Assembly: GCA_947493215.1 (NCBI GenBank)
Contig: CANLQE010000001.1
Coordinates: 744,001 to 808,000 of the forward strand
Source: an uncultured Sphingomonadaceae bacterium
Lineage (GTDB): Bacteria > Pseudomonadota > Alphaproteobacteria > Sphingomonadales > Sphingomonadaceae
Direction: 5' to 3'
Length of the DNA stretch: 64,000 bases
The notes below the pieces were generated by a model. It worked only from the letters and a program-made list of their open reading frames with translations. It was not told where the DNA came from and did not search any database. The translations under genes and the position numbers were made by a program. Shown here piece by piece: positions 361 to 19,003 of the stretch. Within the stretch, counting starts at the first letter, position 1. Each line of letters opens with the position of its first letter.

Positions 361-1539
361 ATGACAAAAAATAACCTATCACCTTGGCCCCATTTTTCTA
401 AAGAAGAGGCCGATACAGTCCATGATGTCATCACATCAAACAATGTGAATTATTGGACCGGACAGCTCGGGCGCAAGTTTGAAACGGATTTTGCGAGATG
501 GACAGGAGTGCCCCACGCAATTGCGCTTGCAAATGGAACGCTAGCCTTAGACCTCGCGCTCAAGGGACTGGGAATTGGCGCAGGTGATGAAGTTATCGTA
601 ACGCCCCGCACCTTTATTGCCTCGGTATCTTCGGTCGTGACAGCCGGGGCCGTTCCGGTCTTTGCGGATGTAGATCTTGATACCGGGAATATTAGCCCCA
701 GAACCATTTCTGCAGTTTTATCAGATAAAACTAAGGCTGTGATTCCAGTCCATTTAGGGGGGTGGCCATGTAATATGGATGGAATTGTCGCGCTTTCTAA
801 GCAGCATGGGTTCGCGGTCATTGAAGACTGCGCGCAAGCTCATGGTGCAAAGGTTGGCGACCGAATGGTCGGCTCCATTGGCCACGTAGGCGCATGGTCA
901 TTTTGCCAAGATAAAATTATGACTACCGGAGGTGAGGGTGGCATGGTTACAACCAGCGACGAATCCGTCTGGAATCGAATGTGGTCTTTTAAGGACCATG
1001 GGAAGAGCTGGGATGCTGTTTACAATAGACACCATCGACCTGGATTTCGTTGGCTTCATGAAAGCTTTGGAACCAATTGGCGAATGCTAGAAATGCAAGC
1101 AGCTATCGGACGGATACAGATCAAAAAAATGGATCACTGGACTAGTTTACGGACACATAACGCGCAAGCGCTGCAAAACGTACTCCGGTCATTCCCAGAG
1201 GCCGTGCGCGCTCCAATTCCTGGAGACGGTTATACTCACGCTTATTACCGCCAATATGGATATATTATTTCCAAAGGTCTAAAACCCGGCTGGACCAGAG
1301 ATCGAATTATTGAGGACATCGTCGCTCAAGGTTATCCAGCATTTCAAGGGAGTTGCAGTGAAGTTTATCTCGAAAAAGCTTTTGATGGAACTGGCTGGCG
1401 GCCTGAAACGAGATTGCCTGTTGCCAAAGAACTTGGCGAAACCAGTATTATGCTTTTGACACACCCGACAATAACCGATGAGCAGTTAGAAAGTTATTGT
1501 AATGCTCTTCGAAAGTCACTGGAGAAAGCTTCGAGATGA
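361..1539 (+). CDS. DegT/DnrJ/EryC1/StrS-type PLP-dependent sugar aminotransferase
   Basis: This 392-residue protein has the full length of DegT-family nucleotide-sugar aminotransferases, which transaminate a keto-sugar using PLP and glutamate. Visible motifs are ALANGTLALDLAL (about 55-67, phosphate-binding), IEDCAQAHGA (154-163, with the Asp that pairs with the pyridine nitrogen) and WSFCQDKIMTTGGEGG (179-194), where Lys185 should form the Schiff base. The family includes PglE, which makes the 4-amino sugar precursor of bacillosamine. A PglD-like and a PglC-like gene lie next door, so a role in a 4-amino-4,6-dideoxy sugar is likely but inferred. It is the only plus-strand gene in the first 11 kb, and a 112-bp divergent promoter region separates it from the glycosyltransferase. 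Confidence 0.9.
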   Translation: MTKNNLSPWPHFSKEEADTVHDVITSNNVNYWTGQLGRKFETDFARWTGVPHAIALANGTLALDLALKGLGIGAGDEVIVTPRTFIASVSSVVTAGAVPVFADVDLDTGNISPRTISAVLSDKTKAVIPVHLGGWPCNMDGIVALSKQHGFAVIEDCAQAHGAKVGDRMVGSIGHVGAWSFCQDKIMTTGGEGGMVTTSDESVWNRMWSFKDHGKSWDAVYNRHHRPGFRWLHESFGTNWRMLEMQAAIGRIQIKKMDHWTSLRTHNAQALQNVLRSFPEAVRAPIPGDGYTHAYYRQYGYIISKGLKPGWTRDRIIEDIVAQGYPAFQGSCSEVYLEKAFDGTGWRPETRLPVAKELGETSIMLLTHPTITDEQLESYCNALRKSLEKASR

Positions 1540-1553
1540 TCGATAATTAGCGT

Positions 1554-2055
1554 TTATCTTTCTAGAGGCCGAGCAGGGTTCGCAACAACGACAGCGCCCA
1601 TTCCTACTATGGCACTAGCGCCGATGTGTTGAGTTTGTCCGATATTCCCTATTTTATAAGTTGCTGCTGTACCAATATCGGCATGATCATCAATACGGAC
1701 ATTGCCGTTACATTTTATGCCTGGGGCAAGCGTCACAAAATCTCCGATCACAAAATCATGAGCTACATAGCTTTAGAGATTACATTGGAAAGTGAGCACC
1801 TATCTGAATAATGCCAATAAGAGTGGTATAAGGCCAGAAAAGCGCATCTCCCTCAATCTCGCAGTTATTTATTCTGATGTGTACATTCAAATGAGTCGGT
1901 ATGAAATATAGGGCAGCAGCTAAGCATTTATTTGATAGGTGGCGCCATATTTTTCCATCGACAATGGTAATTACAATTCTTTTTCGAGTAGTTTTATGAG
2001 ATGTGAACCAGTCAAAATTCCAAATCTCTTTACCCATATGCAGTATATCATGATT
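1554..2055 (-). pseudogene. Broken PglD/NeuD-like sugar O/N-acyltransferase
   Basis: Reading from 2055 downward, NHDILHMGKEIWNFDWF leads into a 4-amino-sugar acyltransferase-like sequence that runs to IGAHFPM and then hits TAA at about 1780. Homology resumes in another frame as SYVAHDFVIGDFVTLAPG, followed by hexapeptide repeats and the ending NPARPLER. Three lesions are visible: the N-terminal nucleotide-binding segment (the GxGGH part of PglD proteins) is missing right after the upstream gene's stop; a frameshift with a stop lies near 1765-1785; and the usual VTKDVPDGATVVG-like stretch before NPARP is absent (the sequence reads GAVVVANPARP). The family acylates UDP-4-amino sugars using a left-handed beta-helix trimer. 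The intact gene would have been co-transcribed with the phosphoglycosyl transferase. Confidence 0.75.
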
Positions 2056-2061
2056 GGCTGC

Positions 2062-2655
2062 TCATGAGGAGTTACCGTTAAATTTTGGCATAGTCGCTTC
2101 GCCCTCAGCACTTACTCCATTCCTGGATAGGACTCTTTTTACAGTTAAAAGTAATATTTTGAAATCTAGCTCTAGGTTCTGATGATCAACATACCAAATA
2201 TCCGCGGCAAATTTTGCTTCCCAGCTTATTGAATTGCGACCATTTACCTGCGCCCATCCGGTGATACCAGGGCGGACTTCGTGACGGCGTGCCTGCTCAG
2301 CACTGTAGAGCGGCAAATATTCCATCAATAATGGCCTGGGACCAACGAACGCCATGTCTCCTTTAACAACATTCCAAAGCCCTGGTAACTCATCGAGGCT
2401 TGTACTGCGCAAGAATCGGCCATAACGCGTCAGCCGTTCTGCATCGGGAAGAATGTTTCCTTTCGCATCGACCGAATGCTTCATAGTTCTAAATTTGATA
2501 AGGTTAAATGGTATACCGTTTAGGCCTGGACGCTTCTGTATAAAAAGCACAGGTTTTCCTAAATATATTTTATTTAAAATAGCGATTAAAAGAAAAATAG
2601 GCGAAAGAATAACAATGGCCAGCAGTGCTACAATAAAATCAATAATATGCTTCAC
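2062..2655 (-). CDS. PglC-like monotopic phosphoglycosyl transferase (bacterial sugar transferase family)
   Basis: At 197 residues this matches the minimal PglC-type enzymes that move a phospho-sugar from a UDP-sugar to undecaprenyl phosphate, the first membrane step of polysaccharide assembly. Residues 1-28 form the hydrophobic re-entrant membrane helix with the SPIF proline break. KFRTM (54-58), SLDELPG (86-92, with the catalytic Asp88-Glu89 dyad), GDMAFVGPRPLL (99-110) and RPGITGWAQVNGRN (128-141) are all present. The long N-terminal membrane domain of WcaJ-type proteins is absent. It lies 12 bp after the membrane-anchored gene at 2668-3846 and directly before the broken acyltransferase, so it closes the intact part of the exopolysaccharide operon. 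Confidence 0.92.
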   Translation of the reverse strand: MKHIIDFIVALLAIVILSPIFLLIAILNKIYLGKPVLFIQKRPGLNGIPFNLIKFRTMKHSVDAKGNILPDAERLTRYGRFLRSTSLDELPGLWNVVKGDMAFVGPRPLLMEYLPLYSAEQARRHEVRPGITGWAQVNGRNSISWEAKFAADIWYVDHQNLELDFKILLLTVKRVLSRNGVSAEGEATMPKFNGNSS

Positions 2656-8621: not shown

Positions 8622-11069
8622 TCAGTCGAAATCATTCACAACAGAGCCGGTTTTAGTCCGTGTTGCCAAGCTAGTGATGCTAGATGATTTCCAAACACCA
8701 TTTGCGAACACGTTTGATACGGTATGACCCCGCGTCAGCTGTATAGCCACATTAGCAGTTGTCGATCCGGTGTTGACAAATACGGTATTTGATAACCAAA
8801 GATCGAGTGATCTTGCCTGACCCGACAAGGAGCTGACACCATTTATTTGGATAAGCTTACCGCCTGCCTCAATGTCGCCAAAAAATCGGCTGTTTGCGAC
8901 AAAGAAATTTGGCAGGCTTTCAGCGTTAGCGATATTGAAGAAACGCAAATAGGCTGTTCCGGAAATTCGTTTCACATCGCAGTTATCGAGATGATATGCA
9001 GCACCTTGATCGGCACTAAGCGTGATAATATCACTCAGATTAAATCTGCTATTTGAAATATTCGAGTCAGCAGTAACCGTTACACCGCCAGAAACTAAAG
9101 ATGCGATGTTGCAGTTATTGATCTGCACCTTCTTACATTTTACGACAACCAAATAGACATTGGCGTCTTCCAGAATTATCTCTGATGCTGTGGCAGTCAC
9201 TCTATGCTTTACCGTGATTGGTTCTTCATCATGCGTCCGCGCTCCTGAGACCTTTACATATACCGGATTTGATGAACTAAACTTACTTATAGTCGCGCTG
9301 TCGCTTGAAGTGCTGGCGGGAAAAGCGCCTTGGTTGACCCATCTCGTGAAAAGATTAGTGACTGTGATATGCGCGCCGCTATCGGCGTTGATTGCCATTG
9401 CAGTATTGCTACCTCCGTCACGATGATACTGAAAGTTGTCAATTGATGCGATAACATTTTTGGCGGCGATACCAATGTTACACTCATTAGCCACGCAAGA
9501 ATCAAAAGTTATTGAAGCCAGCAGATCAACATCTAAAGTTAATGCTTTAAATCCTATTCCTGCATTATCTGCATAGCAATTTATGAAACCTGCTTGAGCA
9601 CCTTTAAAGCCATTGGTTAAGTTGAGGGCCGTTGCCGCATATGTAAACCCGCGACCGCCAGTGTTTCGGCTAACACAGCCGGTAAACGTAACAATATTTG
9701 TATTTTCCGACCAGAAACCACTGTTGAATTCTCCACCTCCATATTGCTGGGAATAGTCATGTGCGTTTTCCGCAATGCAGTTTGTGAAAGAAATTTGGCT
9801 GCTAAGTTCAATCGTTCCACCTGCAACACCTTCAGTAACAAACCCAATGCGAGTAACGTCTACAGCCTTGCAATTGGTTAACGAAATGTTACTTGAGCGG
9901 TTAATATAAAAGCCATCTCCGAAATTGTTACGGGACCGTTCCACAACACAATTGTCAATGACAGCGCTCCTGCAGGCATCCAAACGGATACCAGCCTGCG
10001 CAGAGTTTTGGGCTGTAATATTGCGCAATATAATATTTTGCGCAGAAAATGCTTCTATAGGCCACCAGCCAGTAAAACTATTGTAATTTCCAGGATTCCA
10101 CGACCTGGGGTCGGCACTAACTGCGCCATCGACGGTAAAGTCTTCATAAGTGCCACTTCCACTTATGCTCAACAAGACGCCGCTTTTTACGCCCACATTT
10201 ACTGCCTGGAATTTAGTTTTGTTTTGGCCCGCACCCGCTAAACCAGTGGCTAAAGTGACAACATCTGAAAGTCGATAATCGCCTTCCAAAACAGACAAAG
10301 GAATACCCATTAAGATCGCAACAGTCGATGCAGTTTGAAAGGACACCGTGTCGTCAGTGACGCCATCACCCAAGGCACCAAACCAACTGACATCAATGCT
10401 TTCGAAGCTATCTGATCGAACCCAAGCTCCACTCGCGCCGGTTGGGTCACTCTCCGGAGCTATGTGGAGGCCCTGCTCTGGATCTGCTGTAACCATCGCG
10501 GACAGATCTGCCGTTGAAAACACAAATTTACCGGCCCGGATTGGCTCTGTGAGGAAAGCGTCATCAAGATCAGACGCGGCATTGCCTGCTGTGGCTAAGG
10601 CGGAGCGGGTCGAGTAACCTTCTCCGGACGAGCCAGGATCCCCCTTGGGTCCTTGCTTGCTCGGGTCATAAGGATCCAGGTCCTCAATGGGTGTCGCCAA
10701 TGCTATGTCCGCGCCGGCATCGAATATTCGCAACCGATGGCTGATCGCGCTATCAAGAAATATCTGGGGGAAGCGCCCTAAGTCGTTCGCAACCAATGGG
10801 TTCGGCGCTTCGGCCGAAAGGCTGTTAGTGGTATAAATCGGCGTAAGGTTGGCCGTGCCTGCAAGTGTAAAAACAGCTTTTGCTCCAGCTATCGAATACA
10901 CGCTGCTGTCACGCGCTAGTCTAACTGGCATTGCAAAGTTCACTGCTTTTACAGCGGATTTCTCGGCGAGAGTAGACCCTCCTTTCCCCGCAATTATGCT
11001 AACAATGGCGGGTAATAGATTAGCTTTGAAAACGTCGCGCCGGGAAATGGCTTTCCAATTGAATTTCAT
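8622..11069 (-). CDS. Tat-exported right-handed beta-helix protein with tailspike-like N-terminus
   Basis: The 815-residue product starts with a twin-arginine signal (SRRDVFK, 9-15, then a hydrophobic stretch), so it should be exported folded. Residues ~75-135 (PNPLVANDLGRFPQIFLD...HRLRIFDAGADI) resemble the N-terminal attachment domain of phage tailspikes. They are followed by a short collagen-like Gly-X-Y segment (GPKGDPGSSGEG, 140-151). From 226 the pectate-lyase-3 signature appears (SWFGALGDGVTDDT), and the rest to ~740 reads as repeated short beta-strands of a parallel beta-helix. Family members are polysaccharide lyases, hydrolases or epimerases. Set at the head of the exopolysaccharide operon, it could trim or modify the exported polymer. 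No catalytic residues can be assigned from sequence alone. Confidence 0.8.
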   Translation of the reverse strand: MKFNWKAISRRDVFKANLLPAIVSIIAGKGGSTLAEKSAVKAVNFAMPVRLARDSSVYSIAGAKAVFTLAGTANLTPIYTTNSLSAEAPNPLVANDLGRFPQIFLDSAISHRLRIFDAGADIALATPIEDLDPYDPSKQGPKGDPGSSGEGYSTRSALATAGNAASDLDDAFLTEPIRAGKFVFSTADLSAMVTADPEQGLHIAPESDPTGASGAWVRSDSFESIDVSWFGALGDGVTDDTVSFQTASTVAILMGIPLSVLEGDYRLSDVVTLATGLAGAGQNKTKFQAVNVGVKSGVLLSISGSGTYEDFTVDGAVSADPRSWNPGNYNSFTGWWPIEAFSAQNIILRNITAQNSAQAGIRLDACRSAVIDNCVVERSRNNFGDGFYINRSSNISLTNCKAVDVTRIGFVTEGVAGGTIELSSQISFTNCIAENAHDYSQQYGGGEFNSGFWSENTNIVTFTGCVSRNTGGRGFTYAATALNLTNGFKGAQAGFINCYADNAGIGFKALTLDVDLLASITFDSCVANECNIGIAAKNVIASIDNFQYHRDGGSNTAMAINADSGAHITVTNLFTRWVNQGAFPASTSSDSATISKFSSSNPVYVKVSGARTHDEEPITVKHRVTATASEIILEDANVYLVVVKCKKVQINNCNIASLVSGGVTVTADSNISNSRFNLSDIITLSADQGAAYHLDNCDVKRISGTAYLRFFNIANAESLPNFFVANSRFFGDIEAGGKLIQINGVSSLSGQARSLDLWLSNTVFVNTGSTTANVAIQLTRGHTVSNVFANGVWKSSSITSLATRTKTGSVVNDFD

Positions 11070-11587
11070 AAGGACACCTGATTCTTGCTTGAATCTCGAC
11101 TAAATCCCACTTGCAGATCGATTGGTCAAACTAAGAAAAGAAAAGCAAAAAAGTCTCTTAATTGTGTTACGCTTAAAAAGCAGGCATTCTTTGAAAAATC
11201 GAACTCCTAGATTTAGGCTACCTTATTGTTCTGTTCCCCTGAATGCCTCTTACATTTGTAGTGAGGCTATCTGACTGAGCGAACGGGTGTCCCTGATAAG
11301 AAATTCTCCATAGGCTGTCTTGTCAGGATTCTGATCCTGGAGCCAACGTTTGTTCTTCTAAGATATTGACTTTTTCGCATTAGATTTTCTCGGCGCCAAT
11401 CTTGCTATCAAAAGCGGCTGACAACCGGTCAATTGTATGCGTCGATTCGGGGGCTATCATAAGCGTGAAACAGATATAGAAAGATCAAGCAAATAGACTT
11501 GCAACCTTACAAATATATAGCCTAACAGCAACCGCTAGAGATGAAAGCCCTAGGTGACATGTACGGATATCGAATTCTTGTATTTTG
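11070..11587. other. Divergent intergenic region between the exopolysaccharide and acyl-reductase operons
   Basis: About 518 bp of AT-rich DNA separate the minus-strand polysaccharide operon from the plus-strand acyl operon, and presumably hold promoters for both. I see no convincing gene. A short perfect inverted repeat, CAGGAT-TCTG-ATCCTG, lies at 11324-11339 and could be a small hairpin or operator. Poly-A-rich stretches lie near 11135-11155. No terminator-like T-run follows the hairpin. Confidence 0.5.
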
Positions 11588-12307
11588 ATGTTCAAAATTT
11601 TGATAAGAAGAGGAGGCATTATCAAAAAAATTATTCTCTATGGTGGGGGCGATTTCGCTGTTGAGTTGGCCACATATATTGTCGACATAAATGCGGCGTT
11701 GTCTCTTGCTTCTTCTAACGCCCATGGTTCTGATTTGAAATTAACTGATGTGATCTCATCGGAGCCAGCTCGCGAACAGGACTTAACTGATATAATTGGT
11801 TACAGCCCGGTTTTCCACGATCATATAAATTCAATTTCGGATCTTGAAGAAAAGTACTTCATCTTGAGCATGGGAAATGCATCAGTTAGACACAAGATAC
11901 ATAGCCGTTTATCAGAAATAGGAGCTCAATTTCTTACACTTGTCCATCCACTCGCTTATGTAGCGAGAACGTCGACGGTCGGTGCGGGTTCTGTTATTTG
12001 CCCATTTGTTTTTGTTGGGCCCTTCGCGCGAGTAAGTGAAAACTGCGTACTCAACATAAATTGTTCTGTCGGGCATGATGTTGAAATTGGAACTTCCTCC
12101 GTTCTGTCACCTGGAGCGATGATAAACGGCCACGGCACAACAGGTTCTGCCGCTTTTTTAGGAGCCGGAGCTATTATGAACCCAAACGCGAAATTGGGAA
12201 CTCTCGGACAACTATCGGCAGGATCGGTTTTGACCAAGTCCGCAGGAGACGGTTTCCTTATGCATGGAAATCCTGCGGTTGGCAGACAAATGGTCAAGGT
12301 GAACTGA
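11588..12307 (+). CDS. NeuD/PglD/VioB-type sugar acyltransferase (left-handed beta-helix)
   Basis: This 239-residue protein has the two-part NeuD/PglD layout: an N-terminal Rossmann-like nucleotide-sugar-binding part (IILYGGGDFAVELA) and a C-terminal hexapeptide-repeat helix from about 120 (STVGAGSVICPFVFVGPFARV...). The conserved catalytic-type His is present in NCSVGHDVEIG, and the usual end MHGNPAVGRQ is there. Family members transfer acetyl or larger acyl groups to amino sugars. The ATG at 11588 lacks a good ribosome site; a strong GAGGAGG at 11608-11614 sits just before an ATT-ATC-AAA run, so the real start may be a rare codon near 11617. It heads the operon that includes the ACP gene, 38 bp downstream, so an ACP-bound acyl donor is plausible (inference). 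Confidence 0.82.
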   Translation: MFKILIRRGGIIKKIILYGGGDFAVELATYIVDINAALSLASSNAHGSDLKLTDVISSEPAREQDLTDIIGYSPVFHDHINSISDLEEKYFILSMGNASVRHKIHSRLSEIGAQFLTLVHPLAYVARTSTVGAGSVICPFVFVGPFARVSENCVLNINCSVGHDVEIGTSSVLSPGAMINGHGTTGSAAFLGAGAIMNPNAKLGTLGQLSAGSVLTKSAGDGFLMHGNPAVGRQMVKVN

Positions 12308-12345
12308 ACGAATTCCCTTAAATAACAAAGTAAGGCTATGCAAAC

Positions 12346-12570
12346 GTGAATGATAAAATTGACACAGTGTTTTTGGAAGCACTTGGTTTGGACAATCTGG
12401 ATGATAAATCCATATTAAAGTACAATGAGATTGAAGCGTGGGATTCAGTGGCACATATGACGCTGATTGCAGGCCTTGAGGATGCCTTTGACTGCATGCT
12501 CGATATGGATGACATAATAGACATGAGTTCATATGATATGGCGGTAAAAATTATGGCTAAATATGCCTGA
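12346..12570 (+). CDS. Acyl carrier protein
   Basis: This 74-residue acidic protein starts with GTG and folds as a typical ACP. The 4'-phosphopantetheine site is EAWDSVAHM, with Ser34 in a DSV version of the usual DSL motif. The downstream acidic helix (EDAFDCMLDMDDIIDM) is as in ACPs that dock with partner enzymes. It is not the housekeeping AcpP, which normally sits beside fabG/fabF and carries DSLD. It overlaps the reductase gene by 8 bp, which implies translational coupling. In this operon it most likely carries the substrate passed between the ligase, reductase, acyltransferase and LuxE/LuxC-like enzymes (inference). Confidence 0.88.
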   Translation: MNDKIDTVFLEALGLDNLDDKSILKYNEIEAWDSVAHMTLIAGLEDAFDCMLDMDDIIDMSSYDMAVKIMAKYA

Positions 12571-13321
12571 CTTACTCAGTCTGGCCGGTAAAGTTGCCAT
12601 CATCACTGGTGCGGCACGGGGTATCGGTAGCGCCATAGCGGAAAACTTTGCTGCTCGAGGAGCATCACTTATTCTCAACGCACGAAGCGACGGTGAACGG
12701 CTGGATGCATATTGCAGCGAGCTTAAGTCGTCTTTTAATGTGCCGGTAGTTGGGATACTGGGTGATATATCCAAAGCGGAAACATCCTCGGCTTTGGTCG
12801 CCAGCGCATTTTCAAATTATCGCCGGTTGGACATTTATGTGAACAATGCCGGGGTCCTGCTGGATGGCTTAATTGGAATGGTACCGCAAAGCGATATTGA
12901 TGAGTCAATCGGTGTCAATCTGATAGGCGTTTTACATGGGATCCAGTCTGCGGCGCGCTTGATGAAGCGCGGTGATGGTGGCTCTATAATCAACATTTCC
13001 TCAATAATTGGCCGCGTTGGCAATCAAGGACAAATGGTTTATGCTTCATCAAAGGCGGGGGTTATTGGGGCGACTTTGTCGGCAGCCAAAGAGTTGGCGC
13101 CCGCAAATATTAGAGTGAATGTTATAGCGCCCGGATTTATAGACACTGATATGGTGAAGCAATTACCGACCGCCAAGTTTGACGAGCGAATTGCATCGAT
13201 CGCTATGCAGCGCATCGGCTCTCCTGATGATATCGCAAACGCCGCGCTTTTTCTTGGTTCAGATCTATCTACCTATGTTACGGGCCAAGTATTGGGTGTA
13301 GACGGCGGAATGCTCGTTTAA
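12563..13321 (+). CDS. FabG-like short-chain dehydrogenase/reductase
   Basis: This 252-residue classical SDR shows the NAD(P)-binding TGAARGIG (15-22), NNAG (94-97), the active-site serine in NISSIIG (144-150), Tyr160 and Lys164 (YASSK), and the C-terminal VTGQVLGVDGG that is characteristic of 3-oxoacyl-ACP reductases. By family it reduces a 3-oxoacyl group on ACP to the 3-hydroxyacyl form. An adjoining, overlapping ACP gene supports a carrier-bound substrate. There is no ketosynthase gene in the operon, so the 3-oxo substrate would have to come from elsewhere, or the enzyme reduces a different carbonyl. The following ligase gene begins on the next base after its stop codon. Confidence 0.9.
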   Translation: MPDLLSLAGKVAIITGAARGIGSAIAENFAARGASLILNARSDGERLDAYCSELKSSFNVPVVGILGDISKAETSSALVASAFSNYRRLDIYVNNAGVLLDGLIGMVPQSDIDESIGVNLIGVLHGIQSAARLMKRGDGGSIINISSIIGRVGNQGQMVYASSKAGVIGATLSAAKELAPANIRVNVIAPGFIDTDMVKQLPTAKFDERIASIAMQRIGSPDDIANAALFLGSDLSTYVTGQVLGVDGGMLV

Positions 13322-14740
13322 GTGGCGAAATTATCAACTACGGATTTTGCCTTGTTACTAAGTGACAAAGAGCCCGATCAAATTTGTATAGCCGATGATA
13401 GAAATGACGTCGGGCTCAGTTATCGACAATTCAATCATCGCGTGACGGAATGGCACGAGAATCTTGCTGATCCAAAAGGGCTCGTTTTTCTATATCTCGA
13501 AAATTCGATAGAAAGCGTTGCTGCGCTTTTGGGATCTATAATGGCAGACCATGCAGTTGTCTTGCTCGACCCCTCGTTGCCGTCAGCAAGTCGCGAACAG
13601 TTAAACTATCTATATCAGCCTGAACGGATTATTTCTTCTGACAATGGTTATGATATGACAGTCAGCCTACAGCCTCAGAATGAGCGTATTCATCCCGATC
13701 TCTCAATATTACTTTCTACGTCAGGATCTACAGGTAGTCCTAAATTCGTCCGGCTGACATCTAACAATGTGTTGGCAAATGCTACGGCAATTGCGCAATC
13801 TTTGCAGATTGGGTCTAAGGATGTCGCTTGCGCACATTTGCCATTGCATTACTCTTTTGGATTGTCAGTACTAACAAGTCACCTAGTTGCTGGTGCGGCG
13901 GTTCGTTTGACGAAATCAGGTTTTACAGATCGTTCTTTTTGGAATGGGATGAAGCAGGCCGGCGTCACGCATCTGCCGGGTGTCCCATTCCATTTTCAGA
14001 TGTTGGAGCGGTTGCGATATGAGCGGATTGATTTACCCGCTCTTAGGTCAATGGCGCAGGCAGGAGGTTTTCTTGATATAAAGGGAAGAACCAAAGCTCA
14101 CGACTATATGGCTAAACGCAATGGACGCTTTTATGTCATGTATGGTCAAACCGAAGCTGCGCCTAGAATCTCCACCTTGACTCATGAAGACTTCACACAA
14201 GCGCCCCAATCTGTGGGGCAAGCGCTTGTTGGCGGGAAGTTATTGATTTTGGATGATGATGCCAATCCAGTCGACTTGGGTGAGGAAGGACTCGTTGAAT
14301 ATCATGGTCCAAACGTTATGATGGGTTACGCTCAAAATCGGGCCGATCTTTTGAGAGGTGACGAGTTGGAAGGTATACTGCGAACCGGAGATATTGGCCG
14401 CATGGATTCAGCAGGTCGGCTGACATTAACGGGGCGAGCCAAACGGTCAGCAAAAATTTACGGTCTTCGAGTTAATCTCGATGAAGTAGAGGTGCTTGCA
14501 AATGTTGGGGCAAACACATTTGCGGCCGACGTCGCCGTTACCCAAAGGGCTGAAACGTTGATAATCCACTATCAATGTTCCGATGGTTCTAACGATTCGG
14601 CGATCATCGAAAAAATTAGGCATCTTTTAGCGGCGCATTACACCTTACCTAAAAGTTGCTACAAGTTTGAAGTAGTTAAAGATATTCCCAGAACGTCAAG
14701 AGGTAAAATTGATTATCGGCAATTGGAACAAGTGATATGA
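13322..14740 (+). CDS. AMP-forming acyl ligase (ANL superfamily)
   Basis: This is a 472-residue adenylating enzyme starting with GTG. The P-loop-like motif STSGSTGSPK (132-141), YGQTEAAPR (the A5 motif, about 274-282), the RTGDIGR motif and the C-terminal PRTSRGKIDY with the catalytic lysine are all visible. Such enzymes activate a carboxylic acid as acyl-AMP and pass it to CoA or to a carrier protein. With an ACP gene two positions upstream, loading of that ACP is the simplest reading. It is shorter than typical fatty-acyl-CoA synthetases (500+ residues), closer to carrier-loading ligases. The stop overlaps the next start as ATGA at 14737-14740. Confidence 0.9.
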   Translation: MAKLSTTDFALLLSDKEPDQICIADDRNDVGLSYRQFNHRVTEWHENLADPKGLVFLYLENSIESVAALLGSIMADHAVVLLDPSLPSASREQLNYLYQPERIISSDNGYDMTVSLQPQNERIHPDLSILLSTSGSTGSPKFVRLTSNNVLANATAIAQSLQIGSKDVACAHLPLHYSFGLSVLTSHLVAGAAVRLTKSGFTDRSFWNGMKQAGVTHLPGVPFHFQMLERLRYERIDLPALRSMAQAGGFLDIKGRTKAHDYMAKRNGRFYVMYGQTEAAPRISTLTHEDFTQAPQSVGQALVGGKLLILDDDANPVDLGEEGLVEYHGPNVMMGYAQNRADLLRGDELEGILRTGDIGRMDSAGRLTLTGRAKRSAKIYGLRVNLDEVEVLANVGANTFAADVAVTQRAETLIIHYQCSDGSNDSAIIEKIRHLLAAHYTLPKSCYKFEVVKDIPRTSRGKIDYRQLEQVI

Positions 14741-15816
14741 TTGCAGCACTAGAAACTGCAATGTCCCAGGTTCCTTACAGCATGGCTTATGACGCTCGTG
14801 AGGCTTTGTTGAAAGATGGTCTGAATGCCTTGACTGCTCAGCACTATGCCGCATGCGAACCCTATCGTCGTATAATTGACGGATATTGGAAAGGTGCGAC
14901 TAATGCGCAATCTGTAGATGCCGTGCCCTATCTCCCGGTATCGCTTTTCAAAACGCAAAAATTAATGTCCGTTGCGCCAGAGGCAGTGAGAGTTACATTA
15001 ACCTCTAGTGGAACAACAGGACAGGCAGTCAGCCGGATTTTTATGGATGCTGAGGCCTCGTCAATCCAGCAACGAGCTTTGGCTAGTTCCCTAATGCACG
15101 TGTTAGGCAAAAAACGTTTGCCTATGCTAGTCATCGATACTGATGCGGTTTTCAAAGACCCAAGGTACATGAGTGCGCGCGGGGCCGGTGTCCTGGGTAT
15201 AATGCGATACGGGAGGAATCATGCTTTTGCGCTAACGCCAAATCTGCAGCCTGATTTTGATGCCGTCCGCGCATTTCTTGATGATGTTAATGGAGAGCCG
15301 TTTTTCATGTTCGGATTCACATATTTGGTGTGGATTAATTTTTATGAGCAGTTTCGCGATGCCGGATTAGACCTTTCCAATGGCATCTTGATACACTCGG
15401 GCGGCTGGAAAAAAATGATTGAACGCGCTGTCGACAATATTCAGTTTCGTAGCGCATTGGGTCAAGCATTCAAATTGAAGAAAATTCATAACTTCTATGG
15501 AATGGTAGAGCAGATTGGGTCGATCCTGCTCGAGGGGCCGGACGGTCTTTTATATCCGCCCAACTTTTCCGACGTGATTATTCGGGATCCTGTTACTTGG
15601 GAAGTCGCTCCCAACGGTACACCCGGTGTTGTCCAAACAGTTTCTCTATTGCCGCACAGCTATCCTGGCCATAGTCTCTTGACGGAGGATTTAGGGGTCA
15701 TTGAAACCGTTGACGCAGGCATTAACGGTTGGATGGGCAAGGGCGTTAGGATAATTGGACGAGTGCCCAAAGCTGAGCTTCGGGGCTGCAGTGATGTTAT
15801 AGCGGCAGCGGCATGA
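14737..15816 (+). CDS. LuxE-family acyl-protein synthetase
   Basis: This 359-residue protein shows the LuxE/PaaK adenylation motif LTSSGTTGQ (about 87-95), FGFTYLVW and NFYGMVEQIGS. LuxE enzymes activate a fatty acid with ATP, hold it as a thioester on a cysteine near their C-terminus, and hand it to the LuxC reductase. That cysteine appears conserved as Cys351 in ELRGCSD. The gene sits directly before a luxC-like gene with a 4-bp ATGA overlap, the same partnership as in bioluminescence operons. No luxA/luxB luciferase or luxD thioesterase is present in the window, so the aldehyde must serve another purpose. It is the second ATP-dependent acyl-activating enzyme in this operon. Confidence 0.88.
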   Translation: MIAALETAMSQVPYSMAYDAREALLKDGLNALTAQHYAACEPYRRIIDGYWKGATNAQSVDAVPYLPVSLFKTQKLMSVAPEAVRVTLTSSGTTGQAVSRIFMDAEASSIQQRALASSLMHVLGKKRLPMLVIDTDAVFKDPRYMSARGAGVLGIMRYGRNHAFALTPNLQPDFDAVRAFLDDVNGEPFFMFGFTYLVWINFYEQFRDAGLDLSNGILIHSGGWKKMIERAVDNIQFRSALGQAFKLKKIHNFYGMVEQIGSILLEGPDGLLYPPNFSDVIIRDPVTWEVAPNGTPGVVQTVSLLPHSYPGHSLLTEDLGVIETVDAGINGWMGKGVRIIGRVPKAELRGCSDVIAAAA

Positions 15817-17039
15817 CTGCAGTCATCTGGAATCCCGCTCAAGAATCTGTCGAGGAAGAAGATCTACTCGCGCGGATCGAAGCCTTGAAGTACGCTGGCC
15901 AGTCTCCATTGTTTGATAGTTCCGGTAAACTGCTTTCTAAAATCTCAAAAGCCATTTTAGCCAGTCCGCGCGCGCGCGCCGCTCCTCAATATGTTGCCCT
16001 AGGGTATTGGCTTCGCGCAGCAGCATTGAAGCGGATGGTAGCTGATTTTTCTGCGAAACATCTAAGCGAGAATGGCAGTCTTCTTGTACCGCGCGGCTTG
16101 GCTCTTCACCTGCCGCCTACAAATGTGGATACAATTTTCGTATATAGTTGGGCATTATCTGTACTTGCTGGCAACGCAAATATCGTTCGGTTATCGGAAA
16201 GTCTTTCCGCAGACACCGAATGGTTGGTGGATTTGATCGCAACTGTGGTCGCGCAATCAGAAGAGAGCGAGCGACATGTATTTTGCAGCTACTCCTATGG
16301 TGGCGAATTTGAAAAGAAGTTATCGCGGCAATGTGATCTTCGGATGATATGGGGCGGTGATGCGAAAATCGAGACTGTTTCGCAAATCCCGATCCGGCCG
16401 GACGGGCTTTCGGTAGGCTTTCCTGATCGTAAGTCGATGGCACTCATATCAGCAGAGGAATATAATAAGGCGCCTGCCGAAACACGTGAGCTTCTGGCTA
16501 CCAATCTGTTCAATGATATTTATTGGTTTGATCAAATGGGGTGTGGCTCACCGCGTTTATTGGTGTGGATTGGCGATGGCATTGATAAATCCAAGGACCT
16601 CTATCAGCGAATTTTGTCTATTGCCGAAGGGAAAAATCAGACGGTGGAAGCAGGCGTCGCCATAGGGAAAATTGCCTTTGCCAATGATTTGCTTGCTGAG
16701 TCGATCGGCACATCTGCATGTCACTATAGTAACCTGCTCGAAGTTACCGATGTTATCGACCCAGCATTAGCCCTAGAGCGCACTCAAGGTGGCGGGTTTT
16801 TAATGCAAACAAATGTTGAGAAAATCGAAGATGTGGCAGCTTTCACTTCGCGACGGATACAGACTTTAACCCATTTTGGCTTTTCTGAGGCCGCGCTCAA
16901 TCGTCTTGCGCAAAGCATATCGGGTCGTGGCGGCTATCGCATCGTCCCTATTGGCCAGGCTCTGCAGTTTGACAAGATTTGGGACGGCGTCGAACTTTTT
17001 ACGCATATGACACGGCGCGTCATCATCCGTTTAAACTAG
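15813..17039 (+). CDS. LuxC-family acyl reductase (aldehyde-forming)
   Basis: This 408-residue protein belongs to the LuxC acyl-CoA reductase family (related to aldehyde dehydrogenases), which reduces an acyl thioester to the aldehyde with NADPH. WGGD (180-183) and PDGLSVGFPDRKS lie in the nucleotide-binding part. FDQMGCGSPRLLVW holds Cys244, the expected acyl-accepting nucleophile. The C-terminal TRRVIIRL is typical of the family. Its 4-bp overlap with the LuxE-like gene suggests a two-subunit fatty-acid-reductase complex. The coding sequence contains a (CG)n run near 15967-15979 within codons for Pro-Arg-Ala-Arg-Ala. It is the last gene of the operon and faces a methyltransferase gene on the other strand. 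Confidence 0.9.
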   Translation: MTAVIWNPAQESVEEEDLLARIEALKYAGQSPLFDSSGKLLSKISKAILASPRARAAPQYVALGYWLRAAALKRMVADFSAKHLSENGSLLVPRGLALHLPPTNVDTIFVYSWALSVLAGNANIVRLSESLSADTEWLVDLIATVVAQSEESERHVFCSYSYGGEFEKKLSRQCDLRMIWGGDAKIETVSQIPIRPDGLSVGFPDRKSMALISAEEYNKAPAETRELLATNLFNDIYWFDQMGCGSPRLLVWIGDGIDKSKDLYQRILSIAEGKNQTVEAGVAIGKIAFANDLLAESIGTSACHYSNLLEVTDVIDPALALERTQGGGFLMQTNVEKIEDVAAFTSRRIQTLTHFGFSEAALNRLAQSISGRGGYRIVPIGQALQFDKIWDGVELFTHMTRRVIIRLN

Positions 17040-18739: not shown

Positions 18740-19003
18740 CTAGCCCAAGAAGAAAAATATTGCTTCTGGGCAATCGATCATGCCATCCGCATTGAGATCA
18801 ATCGTTTGAAAGACATCAGGTCCATTTCCAGAACCGCAAGCTTCCCATTCTTCTTCAGACACGCCGCCGTTGCCATTAGCATCACAGCTAACAATAAATG
18901 TTTCGCAAACCGTTTGCTCAATTGACTGAGCCATTGATGGCGTCGAAGCGGCAGCAAAAAGCGCCACTGTTGCATAAGAAAACTTATTTCTTGCTTTAGA
19001 CAT
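18740..19003 (-). CDS. Secreted EF-hand calcium-binding protein
   Basis: This 87-residue protein has a signal peptide (ATVALFAAASTPSMAQ, cleavage after AQ) and two EF-hand-like loops: DANGNGGVSEEE and DLNADGMIDCPE, each with the acidic residues at positions 1, 3, 5 and 12 expected for calcium binding. Four cysteines (in VCETF, SCD, EACG and DCPE) could form two disulfides in the periplasm. The protein ends in a short hydrophobic tail, EAIFFFLG. Small EF-hand proteins of this kind are common in sphingomonads, with mostly unknown roles, probably calcium-dependent binding at the surface. It stands alone, with the IS remnant upstream and empty DNA downstream. Confidence 0.8.
   Translation of the reverse strand: MSKARNKFSYATVALFAAASTPSMAQSIEQTVCETFIVSCDANGNGGVSEEEWEACGSGNGPDVFQTIDLNADGMIDCPEAIFFFLG

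Follow-up and report, generated by a model that had tools for sequence, protein, structure and literature searches.

An ACP-SDR-ligase-LuxE-LuxC gene set beside sphingomonad polysaccharide genes: a probable source of a short hydroxyacyl group for an amino sugar

What do LuxE- and LuxC-type proteins do beside polysaccharide genes? The question is raised by a 64,000-nucleotide stretch of DNA from an uncultured Sphingomonadaceae bacterium (GenBank assembly GCA_947493215.1, contig CANLQE010000001.1, positions 744,001 to 808,000), referred to here as the window. Open reading frame (ORF) calls place six closely packed genes at window positions 11585-17039, encoding a NeuD/PglD-like acyltransferase, an acyl carrier protein (ACP), a FabG-like short-chain dehydrogenase/reductase (SDR), an adenosine monophosphate (AMP)-forming ligase, LuxE and LuxC. 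We consider it rather probable that this operon makes a short hydroxyacyl-ACP and that the acyltransferase transfers the group to a 4-amino sugar for the neighbouring exopolysaccharide. The six genes are:

11585..12307, + strand: NeuD/PglD-like left-handed beta-helix sugar N-acyltransferase (ATG at 11588; Hexapep, TIGR03570)
12346..12570, + strand: dedicated ACP, Ser34 in WDSVAHM (PP-binding below cut-off; PDB ACP 2lml)
12563..13321, + strand: FabG-like SDR (PF13561, adh_short_C2; Tyr160/Lys164)
13322..14740, + strand: AMP-forming ligase (PF00501; Lys462)
14737..15816, + strand: LuxE-type acyl-protein synthetase, Cys351 (PF04443)
15813..17039, + strand: LuxC-type acyl-thioester reductase, Cys244 (PF05893; AlphaFold2 model; fold match 7xc6_A)

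The five ORFs from ACP to LuxC abut or overlap by 4-8 nucleotides (nt), and 38 nt separate the NeuD-like gene from the ACP gene. Residue counts are taken from alignments of 78-81 sequences that include the window copy; L009, with a stop within LuxE, and L011 were left out of alignment A1, and L101, whose LuxC is cut by the contig end, was left out of A2. The catalytic residues are invariant in all five proteins from ACP to LuxC. The ACP scores below the Pfam cut-off (PP-binding 0.0087) and matches the PDB ACP 2lml (0.0024); Ser34, Trp32 and His37 are each kept in 79/79 sequences. The SDR (PF13561, 6e-61) shares 37% identity with E. coli FabG and keeps Tyr160/Lys164 in 78/78 sequences. PDB matches of the ligase (PF00501 AMP-binding, 4e-44; Lys462 in 81/81) include oxalate- and malonate-coenzyme A (CoA) ligases among many others. 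LuxE (9e-50; 7xc6_E, 4e-15; Cys351 in 81/81) is the single PF04443 match in the whole genome. LuxC (1.7e-20; Cys244 in 81/81) is weakly matched by sequence; its AlphaFold2 model is confident (predicted local distance difference test, pLDDT, 93.5), and the best PDB fold match is 7xc6_A, the LuxC of the Photobacterium LuxC-LuxE complex (E-value 3e-16). The NeuD-like protein (Hexapep, 1.6e-13) has the bacillosamine N-acetyltransferase set 2npo/2vhe/3bss as its best PDB matches and, at 127 bits, scores above every other NeuD match of the genome (next 57, broken, and 54). Its AlphaFold2 model is mediocre (pLDDT 73.6) and was given no weight. His164 of this protein sits at the position of the PglD-region His, which is kept in 10/11 NeuD-like rows, the exception being L031; in this family the His is reported to act as a base (PMC8040287).

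When the genome_contigs collection was scanned using an alignment of LuxE, 540 relatives were confirmed, and neighbourhoods were read for the best 80 of them. The exact order ACP-SDR-ligase-LuxE-LuxC, defined as one strand with gaps below 1.5 kb, was found at 72 of these 80 closest LuxE loci; the 72 fall into seven phyla by record title and carry 37 genus-level labels assigned from the titles. Among the eight others are a short contig (L085), a locus with the SDR before the ACP (L044), three in which an additional SDR was called or a gap is too wide (L100-L102) and three that each lack one match (L031, L050, L098). A DegT aminotransferase gene was present at 63/80 loci. Since the order is so often exact and the catalytic residues are invariant, the five parts look needed together. 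Of the 398 genomes in the phylum sample, 29 had a match. A plasmid search returned 19 records, six neighbourhoods of which were read, one without annotation. A Deinococcus plasmid carries ACP-SDR-AMP-LuxE-LuxC followed by a NeuD-type gene above its cut-off; the Ponticoccus plasmid L104 carries ACP-SDR-AMP-LuxE, with a LuxC-annotated gene 2.3 kb off on the opposite strand and two hypothetical genes between LuxE and that gene (10074-13596). Salmonella and Pantoea plasmids have other arrangements and were used just as outside rows. A viral_contigs scan with a single LuxE, a query that reaches close relatives only, found no virus relatives.

The luminescence reading of LuxE and LuxC was considered and rejected. 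A Pfam scan of 20 window proteins detected no luciferase (luxA/luxB) and no ketosynthase, the rest of the genome not having been searched for them, and identity with the lux equivalogs failed by score (NCBIfam LuxE 68 of 550 bits, LuxC 24 of 750). The window proteins share their families, the catalytic Cys residues and the LuxC fold with the lux fatty acid reductase of luminous bacteria, whereas the gene set adds ACP, ligase and SDR and has LuxE residues of its own. Arg127, His220 and Arg283 occur in 81/81 cassette copies of LuxE, the window included, and in 9/9 fused LuxE-LuxC copies, while luminous-type LuxE has Glu/Asp, Thr and Leu at these positions in 27/27. Luminous-type here means a high PF04443 score, an unfused frame and membership of family f58, with the gene order viewed in one locus (L169); L115, cut by a contig end, was left out of this residue table. 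At a guess, the three residues would bind the second carboxylate. In a LuxE tree the window cassette LuxE groups with the fused LuxE-LuxC type (95/92). The tree holds 55 chosen rows, with 26 of the 80 loci kept by choice and the remainder omitted as near-duplicates; one of its rows was wrongly extracted (L172_sis, branch 8.3) and its luminous and outside branches are long, so it was used for broad grouping only, the residue table being the better evidence.

As the preliminary description had stated, the operon has six genes of the named families with the named residues, lies beside polysaccharide genes by the Pfam matches of its neighbours, and has neither luxAB nor a ketosynthase among the scanned proteins; a gene order conserved in relatives, for which it proposed to look, is seen for the last five genes at the closest loci and much less so in a sample of the same order (1/9, see below).

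The sugar that would receive the acyl group can be approached through three features at the left end of the window:

361..1539, + strand: DegT/PglE-type aminotransferase (PF01041, 2e-89)
1554..2060, - strand: decayed NeuD/PglD-like gene, outer limits approximate (TIGR03570, 5e-15, internal TAA)
2062..2655, - strand: bacterial sugar transferase, initiating phosphoglycosyltransferase type (PF02397, 2.6e-61)

The aminotransferase aligns with 547 bits to PDB 7l7x, which we take to be Pcryo_0638 of Psychrobacter, a presumed link from entry to gene. Pcryo_0638 is reported to be the aminotransferase toward UDP (uridine diphosphate)-2,4-diacetamido-2,4,6-trideoxyglucose (PMC8040287). In the genome search the DegT aminotransferase reached 300 bits, and the five partial matches besides it stayed at 20-33 bits; a FlaA1/PglF-like dehydratase farther left of the operon, at 408 bits, is the only strong one in the genome (others 29-49). 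The strong DegT, the strong dehydratase and the best NeuD all lie within 24 kb. Between the sugar-transferase and aminotransferase genes, where PglD would stand in the pgl order, the decayed gene has a TAA inside its TIGR03570 match (window 1578-1781), and just short open pieces remain. These genes make a UDP-4-amino sugar of the bacillosamine type the probable acceptor. With the PglF/PglE/PglD bacillosamine pathway and Psychrobacter 0612/0638/0637 the window shares the aminotransferase match and a PglD-fold acyltransferase; it differs in its proposed donor, hydroxyacyl-ACP instead of acetyl-CoA, and in the decay of its local PglD.

The genes and their order, the residues, the LuxC fold and the neighbourhoods are observed; the individual reactions, the sequence in which they run and the acid we infer, as follows. 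LuxE would activate a small dicarboxylic acid at one carboxyl, giving acyl-AMP and then acyl-Cys351; the acyl group would be reduced on LuxC (Cys244) to the semialdehyde, which the SDR would convert to the alcohol. The ligase would then activate the other carboxyl and load the hydroxy acid onto Ser34 of the ACP, from which the NeuD/PglD-like enzyme would pass the acyl group to UDP-4-amino-4,6-dideoxy-N-acetylglucosamine, which the PglF-like dehydratase and the PglE-like aminotransferase nearby would supply. Our best guess for the starting acid, by analogy with the tetronate genes of V. cholerae, is malate, in which case the group would be 2,4-dihydroxybutanoyl (3-deoxy-tetronyl), as on the perosamine of V. 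cholerae O1. A diacid handled at both ends is preferred because LuxE/LuxC and the ligase would compete for one monoacid. With two carboxyl-activating enzymes in one co-conserved set, a single linear route appears a better account than the fork of the preliminary description, in which the acyl group went either to a sugar or to an aldehyde and which we now regard as doubtful. The last five genes would constitute a portable acyl-donor set that moves between glycan clusters and uses the local sugar N-acyltransferase.

The neighbours of the set in other genomes bear on that last point. At 37/80 loci a hexapeptide acyltransferase gene is found no more than 600 bp away and in the same orientation, upstream in 35 of them; the profile was seeded partly from these loci and missed L099, a Hexapep by Pfam. 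Two scanned Amycolatopsis loci have an LpxA-like partner (PRK05289, 185 and 169 bits, below the 226 cut-off), an ORF of a cluster present in 28 loci; LpxA we take, by its name, to be an acyl-ACP-using family. L170, L172 and L173, from the same phylum, have a PseH-like gene directly upstream of the ACP (70-85 bits, below the cut-off of 93.1), and in L170 a gene for a Maf flagellin glycosyltransferase separates ligase and LuxE. PseH was searched in 34 genomes, which cover 33 of the 43 loci that have no hexapeptide gene next to the cassette. In 21 of the 22 actinomycete-labelled genomes in which it was placed, the best PseH match is no more than 20 kb away from the cassette, provided that both are on one contig; six of these 21 matches are inside the locus, and 6/6 checkable ones were confirmed. 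Ten ORFs upstream of the ACP were scanned with Pfam: L029 gave a GNAT, L036 a sugar transferase, and L041 and L099 hexapeptides, and the six without a Pfam match are probably spurious frames in GC-rich (guanine plus cytosine) DNA. A neighbouring sugar N-acyltransferase is thus frequent by sequence matches, and its predicted type varies between NeuD/PglD, PseH and LpxA-like.

Among the papers listed by literature searches for this gene set or acyl group, the relevant ones were PMC7874193, PMC4875605 and those on V. cholerae and Riemerella. The amino groups in V. cholerae O1 are reported to bear tetronate, RfbL is reported to activate 2,4-dihydroxybutanoate for CoA or RfbK, and deletion of wbeL to abolish the O1 antigen (PMC3441752, PMC12208996); the product of this tetronate pathway acylates a 4-amino sugar (PMC3441752, PMC12208996, PMC4772473). 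The window shares with the rfbKLMNO (wbe) genes, as these are described in print, an ACP, an AMP ligase and a LuxE/LuxC-type reductase beside amino-sugar genes. ACP, ligase, LuxE/LuxC and a hexapeptide acyltransferase stand together in the window, with a sugar aminotransferase near, as in the rfbKLMNO type. The dehydrogenase of the rfb set is an iron alcohol dehydrogenase, and its LuxE and LuxC are fused; the window differs in having an SDR instead of the iron enzyme and LuxE and LuxC as separate genes. Pfam found no iron alcohol dehydrogenase between ligase and LuxE in the window operon. An architecture similar to that of the rfb set was read at three loci that are probably from Vibrionaceae (L177-L179): a ligase, an iron alcohol dehydrogenase and a LuxE::LuxC fusion, the ligase being preceded by a detected ACP in L178 and L179; by analogy, their dehydrogenase is taken as the counterpart of the SDR.

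The group II flagellin islands of Aeromonas are printed with orf1, orf2, orf3, luxE and luxC in the same order, read there as fatty-acid/liposugar synthesis (PMC7874193), and enterobacterial islands list the same gene types (PMC4875605). The window has the five gene types in the order printed for Aeromonas. Group II islands contain pseudaminic acid genes with pseH upstream, not the PglE-type sugar, and the scanned window neighbours (Wzy_C, Wzc, Wza, sugar transferase, DegT) do not form a pseudaminic acid setting. The gene set is already listed in flagellin islands without a demonstrated product, and a sister tetronate pathway is known. Novelty of the set as such, which the preliminary description had suggested, is therefore not supported; what stood of its interpretation is an acyl-ACP cassette with a conserved order near glycan genes.

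In A. piscicola AH-3, pseH is followed by orf1-5 (PMC7874193); we took luxE and luxC of this strain as orf4-5. Its polar flagellin glycan is reported to comprise a pseudaminic derivative of 376.14 Da, hexoses, N-acetylhexosamines and a 102-Da part, with a total of 1491.5 (PMC7874193). Diacetylated pseudaminic acid (Pse5Ac7Ac) with one acetyl replaced by C4H6O3 gives a calculated 376.148 against the reported 376.14 Da, and with one C4H6O3 added the calculated total is 1491.49 against 1491.5. The 376-Da mass is still present in an fgi-1 mutant that retains just the linking sugar (PMC7874193), which agrees with an action of orf1-5 on the linking sugar. The 102-Da part is weaker evidence because a 102-Da addition differs from an acetyl replacement (+60).

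Several observations weigh against the proposed hydroxyacyl-ACP pathway or its extension to Aeromonas. The 72 exact-order loci comprise 57 actinomycete-labelled and 15 others and come from the nearest 80 of 540. In the same-order sample, where 11/296 genomes had a LuxE match (source genome included), the exact order was found at 1/9 other loci read; the deviants had the SDR before the ACP (2/9), an SDR about 2.5 kb beyond LuxC (3/9) or no SDR match (3/9, two of these also without a ligase match). No adjacent hexapeptide enzyme was detected by profile at 43/80 loci, L170 has no SDR match at the locus, and L024, the second closest locus, matched neither the hexapeptide nor the PseH profile. PseH matches are so common, in 33/34 genomes and in 13/14 controls, that finding one says little by itself; L091 has its best match away from the cassette. 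The window NeuD-like protein misses the curated TIGR03570 cut-off (128.2 bits, 3e-37, against 160.8 bits), and its preference for acyl-ACP over acetyl-CoA is a proposal. The Aeromonas mass match also fits isomers such as O-methylglyceroyl, and a CH2NO2 difference comes a little nearer to the reported value (-0.004, compared with +0.008) at low mass accuracy. Strain AH-1 carries a 403-Da derivative and is reported to have no glycosyltransferase genes between its pse genes, and its single-sugar flagellin places it in group I or III of those authors (PMC7874193), so that heavy derivatives also arise otherwise. Finally, L015 and L018, both from the same-order sample, and the Rhizobium plasmid L108 show a sister arrangement in which ACP-ligase-LuxE-LuxC is joined by a two-part transketolase (L015 6596-16821, L018 6041-7859, L108 3365-14412); glucose-methanol-choline (GMC) and FabA/FabZ-like genes occur in L015 and L108, and NeuB stands beside L015. 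Because of these transketolase genes the aldehyde may have other fates.

Of the other explanations, the one that survives best keeps the donor role and changes the acid: the ligase would load a 3-oxo or simple acid, the SDR would yield 3-hydroxyacyl-ACP, and LuxE/LuxC would serve editing or a side branch. We regard it as unlikely. The closest solved structures of the SDR are mostly FabG enzymes, and 3-hydroxyacyl amides occur on amino sugars. However, no ketosynthase was found among the 20 scanned window proteins, LuxE/LuxC is as conserved as the other parts, and the SDR has Asp and Ala at Arg129/Arg172 of FabG, which we take to be the ACP-docking positions. These positions are not conserved in relatives and are weak evidence on the FabG identity of the SDR; given them and the lack of a ketosynthase among the scanned proteins, the 3-oxo reduction of the preliminary description appears doubtful. 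A lipid-like medium- or long-chain acyl group or fatty aldehyde, suggested by the family names and put forward in PMC7874193 and PMC4875605, is improbable: the reported AH-3 masses of 376 and 102 Da leave no room for a long chain, and the window LuxE has Arg127 and Arg283 where the 27 luminous-type LuxE have Glu/Asp and Leu. We give an equally low probability to the aldehyde as true product, feeding a transketolase-like C-C bond-forming enzyme or secreted as a small metabolite, for which the sister arrangement speaks, while no such genes were found among the scanned window neighbours, L015 lies beside NeuB, and in L108 the ACP is preceded by a NeuD-type gene (144 bits, under the cut-off).

Beyond the window, it is possible, and we advance it tentatively, that the cassette has spread through seven phyla or more and alters bacterial surface sugars by providing the N-acyltransferase of each recipient cluster, be it of PglD, PseH or LpxA type, with 2,4-dihydroxybutanoyl-ACP or a similar C4 hydroxyacyl group. 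Here, a bacillosamine-type sugar would have switched from acetyl to the new group because the acetyl-transferring PglD decayed; the same idea would explain the 376-Da derivative of Aeromonas and possibly the 102-Da moiety. Within the literature searched, four points are new: the wide spread with a changing partner, the placement near a decayed PglD, the LuxE signature held in common with the fused copies, and the proposal on the Aeromonas masses.

The flank left of the operon encodes, by Pfam, a beta-helix protein, Wzy_C, Wza, Wzc, the sugar transferase and the DegT aminotransferase; a 392-aa (amino acid) protein there had no Pfam match, and ORFs farther left resemble glycosyltransferases and Wzx by eye. 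The GC content is 45.6-47.1% in window 1-19.5 kb and 54.5% in 20-64 kb, and because of this difference the block that carries the polysaccharide genes and the cassette may be acquired DNA. The beta-helix protein (8622-11069, - strand; 815 aa, right-handed) lies between the Wzy_C gene and the operon, has no NCBIfam match and, at a guess, acts on polysaccharide. At 18740-19003 (- strand) a small secreted-looking protein carries a motif resembling an EF hand by eye. Among the relatives, Sphingopyxis terrae has a LuxE at 71%. L025, labelled Mycobacterium sp., has a LuxE 68% identical to that of the window and falls together with the window and the sphingomonads in the tree; it may be a misassigned or contaminating contig or a recent transfer. 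In L172 (8840-11470, - strand) a single 877-aa open frame contains both the ligase and the LuxE match, perhaps a ligase-LuxE fusion. An LPG_synthase_TM gene follows shortly after LuxC in L082 (12324-13337) and relatives (ORF cluster in 31/80 loci), and a 344-aa ORF within the polysaccharide cluster of L013 (12552-13586) resembles an ATP-grasp enzyme by eye.

If the proposed pathway is true, a gene set now annotated as 'bioluminescence' or 'fatty acid synthesis' would predict an unusual acyl group on surface glycans, in actinomycetes and proteobacteria alike, and a component of the Aeromonas flagellin glycan reported by mass would gain a checkable identity. The acyl group of an amino sugar would then be an exchangeable module, which would bear on phage receptors, serotyping and glycan engineering.

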